Origin: Candidatus Parvarchaeota archaeon
GTDB lineage: Archaea > Nanobdellota > Nanobdellia > CSSed11-243R1
NCBI GenBank assembly: GCA_015522785.1
Contig: WALP01000002.1
Span: 1 to 64,000, forward strand
Length of the DNA stretch: 64,000 bases
Reading direction: 5' to 3'
Position numbers and translations under genes: made by a program. The notes below the pieces were generated by a model, which did no database searches, was not told where the DNA came from, and saw only the letters and a program-made list of their open reading frames with translations. Positions 5,166-62,587 of this stretch are shown here, one piece after another; within the stretch, counting starts at the first letter, position 1, and each line of letters starts with the position of its first letter.

Positions 5166-5699
5166 ATGATGTTTAAGTACATGATAGACATATTGATACT
5201 TTCAATTGTGGTTTCTTTCTCGACAACTGCAGGTGGCATAATCTCACTATACACAAAAAGCGAAATAAAAATTTACAAGAAATGGATTAACCTATCTGAA
5301 AAAATTCTACTAATCATTTTATCATTATTCTTAATAACAATTTACAAATGGACAATCGCAGTTATCTTTCTTGGACTCGCAATACCACTACTTAAAATTA
5401 AAAAGATAAATTTAGTGAAATATACTACCATTGGAATTGCTATAGGAACAATGTTCGCACTAAATGCGCAGGCAAGTTATTTCCTTGGTGCGTTAATCAC
5501 AATCCCGATTATACTCAATTCCACACTACTTGGATATATATCAAAGAAAAGTAGCGTATTCAAAGAAATCGGAAAATATCAAGCTATATTTATTATTGCA
5601 TCCATATTTGCATTCTTAATATCCACCACGCCATTCGTAAAAGCGCTATTGCTTAACGCAGCCGCAGGAATTATAATCGTTTCAGCGCTCTCTTCATAA
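5166..5699 (+). CDS. Polytopic membrane protein, unknown
   Basis: 177 residues with about six hydrophobic segments (roughly 5-28, 45-62, 63-76, 85-102, 105-122 and 140-176) and short basic loops. No transporter signature is recognised. The AT-rich leader has a TATA-like element but no Shine-Dalgarno site, so it is probably leaderless. It converges on the ThrRS editing gene with a 6-base overlap. Confidence 0.7.
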   Translation: MMFKYMIDILILSIVVSFSTTAGGIISLYTKSEIKIYKKWINLSEKILLIILSLFLITIYKWTIAVIFLGLAIPLLKIKKINLVKYTTIGIAIGTMFALNAQASYFLGALITIPIILNSTLLGYISKKSSVFKEIGKYQAIFIIASIFAFLISTTPFVKALLLNAAAGIIIVSALSS

Positions 5700-6101
5700 T
5701 CTTTTTGATAATTCTGCTAATGGATGCCCCTTCACCTTCGTTTCAAATTCCTTGTAGTACCCAAACGGCGCCCTAAAAACTTCAACGTCTTTTTCCTTAG
5801 CAAAAGCCTCCATCTCTTTCAATATTGTTATTGCTATAGATGGTGTAGCCAAGTCATTTGAGAGATGAGCATAGGGGTAAATCAAAATTGAGTCTGCCTT
5901 GACTTCATCCATTTGTTTTTTTATGGCAACAATTGCATTGCGGGCTGTCTCTGGGTCGTCGCCTTTTTCAACGGAAACCAAAGCGACAACAACATTTCGG
6001 AATTCCTTTTCCTCGCCGTCCCTGTTTTCAGGGAGGGTTTTCATCGCTGGTTTTGTTACCCTATACTTAAAATAATCGCAATGCCACTGAAGTAATTTCA
6101 T
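5694..6101 (-). CDS. Stand-alone archaeal ThrRS editing domain
   Basis: 135 residues matching the N-terminal editing domain of archaeal threonyl-tRNA synthetases, a D-aminoacyl-tRNA-deacylase-like fold that hydrolyses mischarged Ser-tRNA(Thr). Support: MKLLQWHCDYFKYRV at the N-terminus and the downstream LIYPYAHLSNDLATPSIAI and FRAPFGYYKEFETKVKGHPL segments. In most euryarchaea this domain is fused to the synthetase; here it is a separate gene two positions downstream of the catalytic gene. The first seven codons are duplicated upstream around a hairpin insert (see repeat). Confidence 0.88.
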   Translation of the reverse strand: MKLLQWHCDYFKYRVTKPAMKTLPENRDGEEKEFRNVVVALVSVEKGDDPETARNAIVAIKKQMDEVKADSILIYPYAHLSNDLATPSIAITILKEMEAFAKEKDVEVFRAPFGYYKEFETKVKGHPLAELSKRL

Positions 6102-6172
6102 AAAATACCCCCTTCTTTTCCCTTAAGGCTTTTCTTTTGAAGAAAAGGCTTATGCCACTGAAGTAATTTCAT
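6081..6172. repeat. 21-bp direct repeat flanking a hairpin insertion at a start codon
   Basis: Positions 6081-6101 and 6152-6172 are identical over 21 bases and encode the ATG plus six codons of the editing gene (MKLLQWH). The 50-base spacer 6102-6151 contains a near-perfect hairpin (AAGGCTTTTCTT/AAGAAAAGGCTT, one mismatch). The hairpin is related to those inside the tRNA introns of this window. It looks like an insertion with target duplication, or a local tandem duplication. Confidence 0.8.
6098..6172 (-). CDS. 24-codon leader ORF created by the duplication
   Basis: Starts at the upstream copy of the editing-gene ATG, which has the better ribosome-binding site (GGAGTG about 8 bases before). 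It reads through the hairpin insert and ends in an ATGA overlap with the real start at 6101. It could couple translation to the editing gene. It may equally be a by-product of the duplication with no function. Confidence 0.35.
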   Translation of the reverse strand: MKLLQWHKPFLQKKSLKGKEGGIL

Positions 6173-6178
6173 GATGTA

Positions 6179-6484
6179 TCACTCCTTATTATCCGATATC
6201 TCCATCTCAATAGATTTGATTTCTTTCTTCATCTTTTTGAACTTATTGGGGATATAATAAAAATTGATGAACGCTAGGATTGACGCGATTCCATTTAATA
6301 AGATAAACAATATTTCTCCTACTTGAACACTATAAATCGTAAATGAAATCACTCCCAGCAAAAAGAAAAGATTAACAAAAATATCGCCGTTGTTGCGCCC
6401 ATTTTTTATGACTATCAGCGTTAAAATTATCCACGCGATTAAAAAGAACACAACTGCTAATAATCCTGCAAACAACCTCATCAC
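6179..6484 (-). CDS. Small membrane protein between the two ThrRS genes
   Basis: 101 residues with about three to four hydrophobic segments (4-26, 35-54, 55-75) and a charged C-terminal tail. No family is recognised. Its ATG overlaps the stop of the ThrRS catalytic gene in an ATGA arrangement, so it is translated from the same operon. Nothing in the sequence ties it to aminoacylation. Confidence 0.7.
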   Translation of the reverse strand: MMRLFAGLLAVVFFLIAWIILTLIVIKNGRNNGDIFVNLFFLLGVISFTIYSVQVGEILFILLNGIASILAFINFYYIPNKFKKMKKEIKSIEMEISDNKE

Positions 6485-17081: not shown

Positions 17082-17205
17082 TGGGGAATCCCGGATTTGA
17101 ACCGGGGTCACAAGGTATCTTGTGTCCTTTCTTTCGCTGGCGTTTCTTTCGGAAAGAAAGGCCATCCCAAACCTCGCATACTAGACCAAGCTATACTAAT
17201 TCCCC
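17082..17205 (-). tRNA. tRNA-Pro(UGG) with one canonical intron
   Basis: Acceptor GGGGAAT (17205-17199) pairs with ATTCCCC; discriminator A at 17082; CCA not encoded. Anticodon UGG at 17169-17167, T-loop TTCAAAT. A 49-nt intron (17117-17165) lies between positions 37 and 38. The junction is a textbook BHB: exon helix CGAGG/CCUUG, central helix UUUG/CAAG, three-base bulges GGA and AUA. The intron core is a CTTTCTTTC/GAAAGAAAG stem. Mature length 75 nt. Confidence 0.93.
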
Positions 17206-21344: not shown

Positions 21345-21399
21345 ATTATCACCAAAATTAAGAAGTAGATTGAAACTTAAATAATTAATTAAAAATGAT

Positions 21400-21639
21400 G
21401 CAGGGGAGGAGATTCGAACTCCCGTAGGGATTGGCCACCAAGTGCCTAATGGCACGTCGGTTCTAACCCACACGGTATCCACGACACCACGGAAGTTTCT
21501 TTCCGTACACGCTTTCTTTTTGAAAGAAAGGGTGTCGCCTTAGCCGTGCCCGTTTGACCGTTCCGCCGCCCCTTTCTCTTTCTTGGCAACCTGCCTTCTT
21601 TTCTAAAGAAGGCGGAAAGGGCGTCTCCGGCACCCCTGC
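21400..21639 (-). tRNA. tRNA-Leu with three introns (apparent anticodon AAG)
   Basis: Acceptor GCAGGGG (21639-21633) pairs with CCCCTGC; discriminator A 21400; T-arm GGGAG-TTCGAAT-CTCCT. Intron 2 (about 21477-21537, 61 nt) is at 37/38 with exon helix CACGG/CCGUG and bulges GGC and AUA. Intron 3 (21431-21462, 32 nt) is in the variable arm with central helix GGUU/GGCC and bulges AGA and AAU; splicing restores a GGG/CCC variable stem. Intron 1 (about 21563-21626) is in the D-loop, exact ends uncertain. Mature length about 83 nt. The anticodon reads AAG; A34 is unusual for an archaeon. No encoded CCA. Confidence 0.85.
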
Positions 21640-42705: not shown

Positions 42706-42717
42706 CGCCAGGGGCAG
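42699..42717. repeat. att-like site at the tRNA-Ser 3' end
   Basis: The 19 bases identical to 29912-29930. They cover the T-stem 3' strand, acceptor 3' strand and discriminator of tRNA-Ser plus the 7 bases after it. tRNA 3' ends are the classic integration targets of archaeal elements, and the segment lying 3' of this tRNA is the putative island. Confidence 0.6.
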
Positions 42718-42953
42718 GAATTTCGTACGCTTTCTTTCCGCAACTTGCGCTTTCTTTCTGGAAAGAAAGGGCAGTTCGAACCTGCATGCCCTTGCGGGCA
42801 CCCGCTCACCCAAGTTTCTCTTTCGCAAGCGTTTCTCTTTTCGAAAGAGAAAGGCTTCTCGAGGCGAGCGCGTTGATTCCCCAATCCATCTTCCCTTATT
42901 TTGGTAAAGCTTTTCTTCGGGAAGAAAAGATTTCCGGGTTCCGCCACCCTGGC
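42706..42953 (-). tRNA. tRNA-Ser(CGA) with three introns, one in the T-loop
   Basis: Acceptor GCCAGGG (42953-42947) with CCCTGGC, discriminator G 42706, variable stem GCCC/GGGC. Anticodon CGA is 42861-42859. All three introns have BHB geometry. D-loop: 42878-42932, central helix CCCG/UGGG, restoring GG18-19. Anticodon loop 37/38: 42807-42857, exon helix CUCGC/GCGGG, central helix CUCG/UGGG. T-loop 59/60: 42720-42774, exon helix GCAGG/CCUGC, central helix UUCG/CGAA, bulges AAC and AUU. Mature length is 87 nt, without encoded CCA. Introns are filled by pyrimidine/purine hairpins. Confidence 0.9.
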
Positions 42954-42993: not shown

Positions 42994-44313
42994 ATGCCAG
43001 AGATAATAATCGGGCGAAGCGAGTCGGATTTTAAAAAATATGGAACTGAAGGTGCTGTCTTCATAGGCAAGCAATATGTGCGAATGGGAGATACCATGTC
43101 TCTAGCAAATAAAGTTTTGCTTGATGTAATACGTCCTCATGTCATACTTGTTACCGGCAAGCGTGGTGAGGGTAAGTCATACACTATGGCACAAATCGCC
43201 GAAAGCGTAATCTCTTTTTTACCTAAAGAAGTTTCCCAAAACATTGCCATGCTTTTCCTTGATACTATGGGGATATTTTGGACAATGAAATATCCAAACT
43301 ACAGAGATGAAGCGTTACTCCACAAATGGGGACTTGAACCAAAGGGACTTGACAATGTCAAGCTTTTTGTTCCAGGTGGAAAGTTCGAGGAGCTCGAAGA
43401 AAAAGGAATTCCTGTCGATGAAAAATTTTATTTAACCACATCAGAAATAGGCCCGCTAGAATGGTGTTTAACTCTTGGCGTCAAACCAACAGACGAAGAC
43501 GGAGTGCTCATAAGTCGAGTTATTACAAATCTGAAAAAAACTGGAGCCAAATATGATATCAACGAAATAATTAACGCTGTTGAAAAGGATGATGAGGCAA
43601 CTCAAAAAACAAAGTCATCGGTTATGTCAAGATTTGAGGCTATAAAAGGGTGGGGACTCTTCGCGAAAGAGGGAACGCCATTGGATAATATTATCCAAGG
43701 TGGAATTGCATCCGTTCTTGACATTTCTGTTTACACCCACGTTTACGGGGCGTTTTCAATCCGTTCCCTCGTAATCTCACTCTTCGCAAAAAAGATATTG
43801 GAAGAAAGAGAAATGGCAAGCCGCCTCGAAGAGAAAGAAGAAATAGAAAAGGGAATAGCATATTTCAGAAAGAGAGAAGTCAAAAAGAAAAAAGTCCCAA
43901 TGGTATGGTTCTTCATAGACGAAGTTCATGAATTCCTTCCGCAAACTGGGAAGACGTTGGCGACGGGTCCGCTGTTGCAGTTAATTCGTGAAGGAAGACA
44001 GCCGGGTATATCTCTTGTGGTTGCGACGCAGCAGCCCGGAAAGATGAATACAGATGTCTTGTCGCAGTGCGACATTGTCATAGCCCATAGGGTAACTTCA
44101 AAGATGGATATCCAAGCACTAAACACAATCATGCAGTCCTTTATGACCACAACTTTATCAGAATCGCTCAATCAACTTCCGAGAGTCAAAGGATGCGCGT
44201 TAATTCTCGACCAAAACCAAGAGCGCCTGTACTCCGTGCAGATGCGCCCGAGGTTCTCATGGCACGGCGGAGAAACACCAACCGCGATACCGCCGAAACC
44301 GAAGGAAATTTAG
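42994..44313 (+). CDS. HerA-like DNA translocase/ATPase
   Basis: 439 residues. Walker A VTGKRGEGKSYTMAQ, Walker B VPMVWFFIDEVHEFLP, a sensor/arginine region LVVATQQPGKMNTDVLSQCD, and an N-terminal barrel-like part as in HerA. HerA with NurA resects DNA ends in archaeal recombination, but no NurA gene is adjacent, so this may be a HerA paralogue. A TATA-like AAAATATATG precedes the start directly after tRNA-Ser. Confidence 0.87.
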   Translation: MPEIIIGRSESDFKKYGTEGAVFIGKQYVRMGDTMSLANKVLLDVIRPHVILVTGKRGEGKSYTMAQIAESVISFLPKEVSQNIAMLFLDTMGIFWTMKYPNYRDEALLHKWGLEPKGLDNVKLFVPGGKFEELEEKGIPVDEKFYLTTSEIGPLEWCLTLGVKPTDEDGVLISRVITNLKKTGAKYDINEIINAVEKDDEATQKTKSSVMSRFEAIKGWGLFAKEGTPLDNIIQGGIASVLDISVYTHVYGAFSIRSLVISLFAKKILEEREMASRLEEKEEIEKGIAYFRKREVKKKKVPMVWFFIDEVHEFLPQTGKTLATGPLLQLIREGRQPGISLVVATQQPGKMNTDVLSQCDIVIAHRVTSKMDIQALNTIMQSFMTTTLSESLNQLPRVKGCALILDQNQERLYSVQMRPRFSWHGGETPTAIPPKPKEI

Positions 44314-59851: not shown

Positions 59852-59921
59852 ATTTCTTTCTTTAGCGCAGGTTTCTTAACACCCTTCTTTAGAAAAGAAG
59901 CGCGTCCGGAAGAAAAGAAAT
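59852..59921 (-). terminator. Nested hairpin downstream of EF-1A
   Basis: The outer stem ATTTCTTT 59852-59859 with AAAGAAAT 59914-59921 encloses a perfect hairpin CTTCTTT-AGA-AAAGAAG (59884-59900). The latter 17 bases also occur inside the D-loop intron of tRNA-Leu. On the minus strand it follows EF-1A and is succeeded by a run of eight T, consistent with termination or 3'-end stabilisation. The rest of 59735-59969 holds nothing recognisable. Confidence 0.55.
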
Positions 59922-61856: not shown

Positions 61857-62453
61857 ATGGTTGAAATAAAAATGTTTGAAAAGTATGATATGAACATCGA
61901 AGTAATGGACCCTGGATTGAAAAGCTCCATAAACTTGAAACCTCTTTTTGTTCCTCAAACCTTTGGGAGACACGCAAGCCAAAGGTTCGCAAAAAGCAAC
62001 GTCAATATTGTCGAAAGATTCATGAACAAGCTCATGTCACCTGGACACAAAGGAAAGAAGCACTGGAGGACAAGCGAGTTCAATTCCGGAAAGTCGCAGA
62101 CTGTATATAATATTACCAAAAAAACATTTGAGATAATTGAAAAACAGACAGGCAAAAACCCTGTTGAAGTTCTTGTAAGGGCTGTCGAAAACTCGGCGCC
62201 AAGAGACGAAGTAACAGTAATTGAAATGGGTGGAATCAGAGTTCCAAAGCAGGTTGACACTTCCCCCCAAAGGAGAGTTGACTTGGCGTTAAGGTGGATA
62301 ACGCAGGGTGCGTTTCAGGCAGTGGCGGACAAAAAAGTCCCAATCGAGAAAGGATTAGCAAACGAAATAATCGCTGCAAGCAAGGAAGACCAGAAATCAT
62401 TCGCGTTGTCAAAGAAAGTCGAAGTCGAAAGGCAAGCGGCAGCTTCAAGGTAA
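61857..62453 (+). CDS. rps7: Ribosomal protein uS7
   Basis: 198 residues. Archaeal uS7 core (NPVEVLVRAVENSAPRDEVT and RVDLALRWITQGAFQAVAD). It starts 14 bases after uS12, as in the archaeal str cluster. A CTTTTTCTT/AAGAAAAAG hairpin begins right after its stop. Confidence 0.95.
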   Translation: MVEIKMFEKYDMNIEVMDPGLKSSINLKPLFVPQTFGRHASQRFAKSNVNIVERFMNKLMSPGHKGKKHWRTSEFNSGKSQTVYNITKKTFEIIEKQTGKNPVEVLVRAVENSAPRDEVTVIEMGGIRVPKQVDTSPQRRVDLALRWITQGAFQAVADKKVPIEKGLANEIIAASKEDQKSFALSKKVEVERQAAASR

Positions 62454-62587
62454 TCTTTTTCTTAAGAAGAAAAAGCTTAACCAAAAAGAAATTTTTCTCT
62501 TAGTTAGCCCGTGTCCAACGAGGCTTTGTTCGGCACAAGCAACAAAGTCACTCTGTTTTTTCTAAAGAAAAAGTGGGTAGGCAATTA
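62454..62587 (+). other. Spacer with three hairpins after uS7
   Basis: CTTTTTCTT-AAG-AAGAAAAAG (62455-62475), CTTTGTT-(10)-AACAAAG (62524-62547) and a TTTTTTCT/AGAAAAA stem (about 62556-62573). The first is a probable terminator or stabiliser of the uS12-uS7 transcript. The GC-richer 62505-62550 could be a small RNA, without further support. Confidence 0.45.

Follow-up and report, generated by a model that had tools for sequence, protein, structure and literature searches.

The window analysed here, a 64,000-nt stretch of contig WALP01000002.1 from a Candidatus Parvarchaeota archaeon, contains a tRNA-Ser(CGA) gene that is interrupted three times. The question it raises is what the three inserts are and how they came to lie in one gene. 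A preliminary description had read all of them as BHB introns, and had suspected from two such genes in the window a heavy intron load and a broad-specificity splicing endonuclease.

The anatomy of an interrupted tRNA-Ser(CGA) gene

The tRNA-Ser(CGA) gene is real and lies where the preliminary description had placed it, on the minus strand, which had been left unstated (Table 1). Its acceptor stem GCCAGGG/CCCTGGC pairs at 7/7 positions and its T-stem GCAGG/CCTGC at 5/5; the spliced form has a 5/5 paired anticodon arm and a long variable arm, and the gene carries the anticodon CGA and G73 and does not encode CCA. As had been described, the tRNA measures 87 nt once inserts of 55, 51 and 55 nt are removed; it has this long arm. 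The three-intron 87-nt solution ranked first in a search over combinations of BHB candidates; looser scoring rules favoured another D-loop register, with a product of 89 nt. The predicted fold of the pre-tRNA reaches -100.7 kcal/mol (z = -4.47), a stability equalled by none of 200 shuffles.

Neither ARAGORN nor Rfam at the gathering score reported a tRNA in the window, and ARAGORN still missed tRNA-Ser(CGA) when anticodon-loop introns were allowed. Six window matches to Rfam 15 appeared at E<=10, none of them on the listed tRNA loci or elements, so that these loci and elements matched no known Rfam family, group I and group II introns included.

Table 1. Positions of the focal gene, its exons and introns, and other features of the window.
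Feature	Position	Strand	Remarks
tRNA-Ser(CGA) gene	42706..42953	-	nt 1 at 42953, G73 at 42706
Exon 1	42934..42953	-	nt 1-19; the 20/20a register puts nt 20 at 42933
D-loop intron, 55 nt	42878..42932 (42877-42933 if 19/20)	-	relaxed HBh' BHB; degenerate hairpin-element copy
Exon 2	42858..42877	-	D-arm 3' side to G37, anticodon CGA
37/38 intron, 51 nt	42807..42857	-	hairpin-element copy
Exon 3	42775..42806	-	A38, anticodon stem 3', variable arm, T-stem 5', T-loop to nt 59; stops at 42775
59/60 T-loop intron, 55 nt	42720..42774	-	strict BHB, hairpin-element copy
Exon 4	42706..42719	-	nt 60-73; begins at 42719
herA-like ATPase gene	42994..44313	+	PF01935, PF05872; divergent neighbour, synteny anchor
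tRNA-Pro(TGG), one intron	17082..17205	-	37/38 intron 17117-17165 carries the element
Second multi-insert tRNA locus, probably tRNA-Leu	21399..21639	-	acceptor 7/7, T-arm intact; splice solutions low-scoring, conflicting; element copies at 21494-21536 and 21577-21615
tRNA-Thr_ED ORF	5694-6101		PF08915
Element copy outside tRNA	6111..6153	-	flanked on both sides by a 21-bp sequence that is the start of the tRNA-Thr_ED ORF; upstream of that ORF
Element copy outside tRNA	59878..59916	+	32.2 bits
Element copy outside tRNA	62449..62491	+	24.7 bits

Splice motifs at the three sites

All three introns had been described as BHB motifs, each with an exon helix, a 4-bp helix and two 3-base bulges. This holds for the 59/60 site, where the motif scan gave a T-stem h of 5 bp, H of TTCG/CGAA and bulges AAC and ATT, and where the minimum-energy fold of the pre-tRNA recovers the BHB with both bulges. 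A BHB can also be formed at the 37/38 junction (42858|42806), with h of 7 bp and H of CTCG/TGGG including two G.U pairs; the minimum-energy fold there is instead an extended CGCUCGCC/GGUGAGCG stem. The junction yields A38 and a CTCGC/GCGGG stem and is backed by the orthologues described below.

The description does not hold for the D-loop site (42933|42877), which has H of CCCG/TGGG and h' and an exon-exon helix of just 1 bp, and is a relaxed HBh' motif rather than a strict BHB. Placing this junction at 20/20a gives the 87-nt product and placing it at 19/20 gives 85 nt, the length of the uninterrupted orthologues. Because those orthologues measure 85 nt, the comparison suggests 19/20 rather than 20/20a as the true junction of the focal gene, in a register that is uncertain. 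D-loop positions differed by a few nucleotides between our two scoring rounds and are given below as "D-loop" only.

Syntenic orthologues as natural empty sites

The divergent herA-like ATPase gene next to the focal tRNA served as a synteny anchor, and its closest named relatives lie in four metagenome-assembled genomes: AUK188 (Nanoarchaeota; locus L079, protein identity 90%), Dive96_bin10.467 (labelled "archaeon"; L080, 81%), CSSed165cm_329 (Woesearchaeota; L081, 76%) and STA_6 (Nanoarchaeia; L082, 67%). In the first three, tRNA-Ser(CGA) lies beside the herA-like gene with its anticodon unchanged and is predicted to splice to 85 nt. The AUK188 gene has the 37/38 and 59/60 introns and no D-loop intron; the genes at L080 and L081 have the 59/60 intron alone, their D-loop and 37/38 sites being uninterrupted. 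The D-loop intron of the focal gene is missing in all three. The more distant genome G018 also has the 59/60 intron in its tRNA-Ser(CGA), and no orthologue without that intron was seen among L079, L080, L081 and G018. The simplest order of gain would run from 59/60 through 37/38 to the D-loop.

It is the Ser(GGA) gene of AUK188, and not its syntenic Ser(CGA) gene, whose corresponding stretch is 93% identical to the DNA around the focal 37/38 intron. By this comparison introns appear to pass between isoacceptors, via transposition or gene conversion.

A heavy load of tRNA introns

The source genome (G000; 578,669 bp) is 68.8% complete and, judged by its relatives, belongs to the Nanoarchaeia. 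We compared it with the congeners G001 and G002 (AUK188), 91% complete, and with three genomes of the same family, G003 (89%), G004 (78%) and G005 (71%). Plain ARAGORN found 2 tRNAs in G000, and 15 with anticodon-loop introns allowed. A search for T-arm plus acceptor stem, spliced or not, found 31 loci in G000; for G002 the candidate 3' ends numbered 34, and 33 were solved. Counts were restricted to loci with a tRNA score of at least 28, that is, 22 genes in G000 and 23 in G002; this set aside 9/31 and 9/33 loci that scored lower, one two-gene artefact in G002 and the one G002 candidate that had no solution. On reversed genomes the same search produced 1 and 3 candidates, with a best score of 25.8, against these 22 and 23 real loci.

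The suspected heavy load was borne out. The 22 resolved genes of G000 hold 36 introns, 8 in the D-loop, 15 at 37/38, 11 at 59/60 and 2 elsewhere; four genes have three introns, two have none, and 20/22 are interrupted. G002 has 34 introns in 23 genes, four of them with three introns and four with none. The ratios of 1.64 (G000) and 1.48 (G002) introns per resolved gene are of the same order as that of Pyrobaculum calidifontis (71 introns in 46 genes, 1.54), which the cited passages of PMC8450103 give as the highest among complete genomes scanned with tRNAscan-SE 2.0, the Thermoproteales averaging 0.84 per tRNA gene. We claim no more than the order of magnitude, since the resolved subset is selected and incomplete.

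The second affected gene suspected in the window was also borne out, as a multi-insert locus, probably tRNA-Leu, with two element copies (Table 1). A 28-nt intron-like insert lacking the core described below lies at position 8/9 of tRNA-Met, at C30:20226-20253 in G000 and C18:20292 in G002. Most tRNAs of G000 escape a standard scan, so that tRNA counts for genomes of this kind may run low.

Might the focal gene be a decaying pseudogene, its working counterpart lying in the missing 31% of the genome? The completeness of 68.8% leaves room for this. We nonetheless hold it to be extremely improbable: all stems are intact, the gene keeps its place and anticodon in three relatives, and nearly all resolved tRNAs of the genome are likewise interrupted. 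No second, uninterrupted tRNA-Ser(CGA) appeared among the 31 loci of this incomplete genome.

The introns share a covarying hairpin core

The introns have a core of about 40 nt in common, in which four variable nucleotides are followed by a C.C mismatch and a pyrimidine-purine stem-loop, then by the complement of those four and by a purine tract. This 3' purine tract matches the pyrimidine tract in run length. Core seeds numbered 211, against 32 in a reversed control, and the core is present in 30/36 resolved introns of G000 and 27/34 of G002. The introns thus appear, by their sequences, to be copies of one dispersed repeat family, a point that the preliminary description had missed. Among core-bearing introns of resolved genes, 56/57 occupy one of three loops (D, anticodon or T), the exception being an intron at 30/31; some core introns located in stems occur among unresolved genes and in other genomes (e.g. 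L161, L164).

We seeded a covariance model (CM) of the core, about 39 columns wide, from a hand-chosen ungapped set of six copies; MAFFT alignments of mixed element types were misaligned and were not used. The CM found 47 matches in G000 at E<0.01, six of which built the model or lie with its builders. With stricter filters (E<=0.001) there were 32 matches in G000 and 33 in G002. The focal 59/60 intron scored 26.6 bits (E 0.0023), and the other two focal introns lay near noise, the 37/38 intron at 16.7 bits (E 0.68) and the D-loop intron at 16.5 bits (E 0.76). Both of these align with the introns of Ser(GGA) in G002, whose D-loop copy scores 26.3 bits.

Covariation was assessed on 134 matches (127 distinct rows), drawn from most pieces of G000 and G002 and from 15 loci of other genomes. 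In this alignment, which had been fitted to the structure and whose figures are to be read with that caveat, 96.1% of pair cells are standard pairs. Ten of the 11 core pairs change on both sides, in 256 cells against 68.5 in shuffles (0/500), and all four pairs of the variable stem occur as GC, CG, AU and UA. When the 3' side is slid, pairing falls to 35-61%. Further pair types number 26, which is no excess over shuffles (24.5; 108/500), and the outermost stem pair is unpaired in 37/124 rows.

Why the core has a third, purine segment invites one further idea, namely that it forms a purine-motif triple helix with the hairpin. The segment is a parallel complement of the pyrimidine tract, with the A-run matched, in 120/329 hairpins; shuffling the tracts among cores gives 48.8 +/- 4.8. 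In 82/329 hairpins the purine arm of the hairpin itself recurs as a direct repeat, and 79 of these are within those 120 because symmetric tracts are common. The run-length match is accounted for by antiparallel CT(n)C:GA(n)G pairing, and the predicted folds of the focal 37/38 and 59/60 introns use it. Because such pairing suffices, we set the triplex aside as very improbable.

Shared introns and enrichment in tRNA genes

Identity among copies was compared in a selected set of 148 cores that also have the third segment. The 59/60 introns of Asp(GTC), Gly(TCC) and Glu(CTC) in G000 are 100% identical, and that of a fourth gene, at C28+40512, is 99% identical. DNA of G002 that aligns with the G000 loci carries Gly(TCC) and Glu(CTC) genes without a 59/60 intron. 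G002 has an identical pair of its own in the 59/60 introns of Gln(CTG) and Gln(TTG), with further introns 91-96% like this pair. For 15 anticodons the gene is resolved in G000 and in G002 alike, and 8 of these disagree in their 59/60 state, gain and loss being unpolarised for each gene. Of these eight, Val(CAC) is based on a 107-nt intron that lacks the core, and Met(CAT) stands in this comparison for two genes, one of which was compared. Judged by such orthologous empty sites, the introns would have spread recently.

The selected cores are concentrated in tRNA loci, with 36/65 in G000 and 35/83 in G002 against 0.60 and 0.65 expected by length, these loci making up 0.93% and 0.78% of the sequence. 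Of the 71 cores within them, 67 are in sense and 4 in antisense orientation. Part of the enrichment is built in, because the locus finder accepted weaker 59/60 helices only with a core present; the excess is far too large to stem from this bias alone. Cores outside the called loci include intergenic copies and copies in tRNAs that the census missed, e.g. G002 C19+12521 and G000 C26+3340. Partial copies of the tRNA-Thr 5' end lie upstream of tRNA-Thr genes, with an element between or beside them, at C30:17752-17793 and C11:9470-9534 of G000.

Ectopic gene conversion between tRNA genes, in which old resident introns are copied along with exons and no mobile element is needed, offers another account of the shared introns. 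It would fit the closest intron pairs, which are mostly at the same tRNA position (59/60 to 59/60); the T-stem CCGGG/CCCGG shared by the Asp, Gly and Glu genes; and the focal D-loop and 37/38 introns, whose better match is with the Ser(GGA) paralogue of G002 rather than with the syntenic Ser(CGA). It does not readily explain why one core occurs at D-, anticodon and T-loops, outside tRNAs, and in rRNA, RNase P RNA and an ORF, as described below. Nor does it fit a head-to-head composite of two elements that by eye is alike at different positions, the 59/60 site of Ala(GGC) in G000 (C30:24812-24901) and the T-arm region of tRNA-Asp in G001 (L161). Gene conversion could explain part of the sharing; as the whole explanation we think it rather unlikely, while giving it more weight than any other alternative considered here.

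Copies of the element outside tRNA genes

Three element copies in the window lie outside tRNA genes (Table 1). For the copy at 6111-6153, mRNA splicing was rejected, the downstream ORF being complete without it; a weak A-U BHB could be drawn by hand across this copy (window 6070-6200). Matches to the CM at E<=0.001 occur in 26/194 phylum-sampled genomes, G000 and G002 counted. At E<=1 the number per genome ranges from 0 to 89, and the consensus recurs in other families of the class.

Inspection of 40 loci picked from the hit lists of G165, G006, G018, G030 and G003 revealed copies within other genes. In G165, the 16S rRNA has a 41-nt insert where the Rfam consensus has 1 nt and the 23S rRNA a 44-nt insert where it has 2, both in hairpin loops and on the sense strand. 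The RNase P RNA of G165 has a sense-strand copy in an expanded, poorly aligned part, and a further copy lies directly upstream of the 23S start. Perhaps two copies are present in this RNase P RNA (rRNA and RNase P loci L248-L252). An SPP-family (signal-peptide-peptidase) ORF of the same genome contains an element that encodes 12 residues and corresponds to a gap in the G000 and G002 relatives (41 and 36% identity); a second gap, of 5 residues, lies further on in the alignment. This is the one clear in-frame insertion among 28 ORF/element combinations. A Dus ORF likewise reads through an element copy, and two G003 ORFs with relatives (L277, L280) had no clean gap at the element.

These copies bear on a further alternative, that the core is a conserved functional RNA, such as a hairpin for protein binding, processing or terminator-like action, favoured by selection at many places and not a selfish insertion. 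Two-sided covariation, the sense orientation in tRNA loci and the recurrence of the consensus in other families would all be expected of such an RNA. Set against them are the variable presence of the core, both between orthologous tRNAs and from genome to genome, and its copies inside rRNA, RNase P RNA and a protein ORF. We judge this reading improbable.

The flanks of copies outside tRNA genes were compared with random places. Flank matches of at least 8 nt were found at 5/28 copies in G000 and 5/46 in G002, against 1/65 and 4/83 random places (pooled, 10/74 against 5/148), and just one exceeded 10 nt, at 21. These figures do not support a general target-site duplication: the flanks in G000 and G002 lack long repeats with a single exception, although 8-10 nt matches occur somewhat more often than at random places. 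At 4/40 loci from other genomes the element is flanked by non-tandem repeats of 16-39 nt; two more loci have tandem repeats. At L264, L265, L271 and L273 (16-39 nt) and, by eye, at L274, the element lies between direct repeats, among them a duplicated 5S rRNA 3' end and a duplicated gene start, presumably that of ribosomal protein L44e to judge from the peptide. At five non-tRNA places compared between G000 and G002, the flanks were mostly too diverged for clean empty sites to be seen. Nearly unchanged between the two genomes are about 70 nt directly before two element copies (L037:2281-2380, G000 C25), possibly a small RNA.

Two carriers were considered and rejected. Mobilisation of the IS200/IS605 type was set aside because the 68.8%-complete G000 has no match to the Y1 transposase family PF01797. 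Viral carriage found no backing either, two exact patterns having 0 matches in viral_contigs, a result that says little about diverged copies.

The splicing machinery

The preliminary description had predicted a broad-specificity EndA, heteromeric or extended. No such enzyme was found: G001, G002 and G003 have one match each to PF01974, and the AUK188 EndA has no insertion like that of chains 2cv8 and 3p1z. G004 has no PF01974 match and G005 has two; RtcB is present in G001, G002 and G003. Neither EndA nor RtcB was found in the 68.8%-complete G000, which we put down to the incompleteness of the genome.

The EndA proteins of AUK188 and G001 are 176 aa long, and that of AUK188 aligns with M. jannaschii EndA over residues 9-176. 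That insertion, of 10-11 residues near residue 33 in chains 2cv8, which we take to be Sulfolobus EndA, and 3p1z, has no counterpart in it; we read this insertion as the crenarchaeal loop. 3P1Z is the EndA of Aeropyrum pernix (PMC6379350). A deeper profile search of G002 found no second EndA-like ORF below E 0.5. From its sequence the EndA of the congeners looks alpha4-like.

According to the cited passages of PMC6379350, relaxed motifs are cut efficiently only by (alpha beta)2 and epsilon2 EndA, and alpha4 enzymes are narrow. For the nine D-loop introns in resolved genes of G002, the motif scan gives exon helices of 0-2 bp. Either the alpha-type EndA has a wider range than related enzymes, or the assemblies lack a partner for it, or the D-loop junctions have been misjudged. 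The same source proposes as a rule that many relaxed, non-canonical introns go together with (alpha beta)2 or epsilon2 EndA with special loops, and the element family puts this rule to the test because two congeners seem to have a single alpha-type gene.

A proposed origin of the introns

We consider it likely that the three inserts are tRNA introns of the archaeal kind and that they stem from a dispersed, hairpin-forming Nanoarchaeia repeat. Behind this reading stand the anatomy of the gene, the empty sites of its orthologues, one family at D-, anticodon and T-loops, introns common to different tRNAs, the copies outside tRNAs and the covariation. A copy of the element would land in a tRNA loop with suitable flanks, and its ends would form a BHB or relaxed BHB with the exons. 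EndA would then excise the intron and RtcB would join the exons into tRNA-Ser(CGA). Both the splicing of these introns and the active mobility of the repeat are what we infer. Counting against this origin are the relaxed D-loop sites set beside a lone alpha4-like EndA in the congeners, a focal 37/38 BHB that is not the minimum-energy fold, and the weak CM scores of two of the three focal introns. Also on this side are the absence of EndA, RtcB and a Y1 transposase from the matches in the incomplete G000, the number of further pair types and the often unpaired outermost pair, flank duplications that are not general, and the part that gene conversion could have in the sharing.

A bolder version would make the element a selfish, class-wide Nanoarchaeia hairpin that spreads at the RNA level. 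The excised intron would be reinserted into exposed hairpin loops (the D-, anticodon and T-loops of tRNAs, 16S, 23S and RNase P RNA) by a reversed EndA/RtcB reaction and copied into DNA, and would be tolerated in frame in proteins. The location of the introns in loops and the two rRNA sites would fit insertion into folded RNA; they fit equally well survival only where loops tolerate inserts. We think this version unlikely, somewhat more so than gene conversion. If true, mobile introns would have an equivalent built on the BHB, with a narrow-type homomeric EndA serving it.

Comparison with known systems

Bacterial REP/MITE-type repeats are short hairpins with tens of copies per genome, some in head-to-head pairs, and the Nanoarchaeia element resembles them in all three respects. 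It differs from them in its enrichment in tRNA genes and its sense orientation there, and in that no Y1 transposase was found in G000.

The rickettsial palindromic unit is about 100-150 bp long. Compared with it, the Nanoarchaeia element is archaeal, measures about 40 nt, coincides with BHB introns in tRNAs and has one clear ORF insertion. Likeness lies in a small palindromic repeat being tolerated in frame in a protein gene and elsewhere, as in the cited account of Rickettsia palindromic elements inside protein genes (Ogata et al. 2000, cited in PMC6649704).

The cited passages on Nanoarchaeum equitans and ARMAN describe small archaea with disrupted tRNA genes (PMC4033280), a description that also suits the organism studied here. 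Their EndA enzymes are (alpha beta)2 and epsilon2 (PMC6379350), unlike the single alpha-type EndA gene of the congeners.

A further parallel is with the Thermoproteales, where near-alike BHB introns in different tRNA species have been attributed to transposition (Fujishima et al. 2010, cited in PMC4033280 and PMC4090602). As far as those passages go, the two systems have in common similar BHB introns across tRNA species, at canonical and non-canonical positions, up to three per gene and rapidly gained; the identical 59/60 introns of Asp, Gly and Glu are near-identical introns of this kind. The present case differs in its host, Nanoarchaeia (DPANN); in one covarying core found at D-, anticodon and T-loops; in copies that also lie outside tRNA genes and, in relatives, within rRNA, RNase P RNA and an ORF; and in the congeners' single EndA gene, which lacks the inserted loop.

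Transposing BHB introns and small palindromic coding repeats are thus each already known, from the passages cited (PMC4033280, PMC4090602, PMC6649704). Among the matches listed from the open-licence literature, none described for DPANN archaea a single covarying core that acts as an intron in three tRNA loops and recurs in rRNA, in RNase P RNA and in an ORF, and none on palindromic elements described an archaeal counterpart. The origin and mobility of archaeal BHB introns are an old open question, and a 2014 review states, in the passage cited, that the mechanism of their transposition is still unknown (PMC4090602). Insertion is here open to study by comparing close genomes, because orthologues differ in their introns, the core is recognisable and copies exist outside tRNAs.
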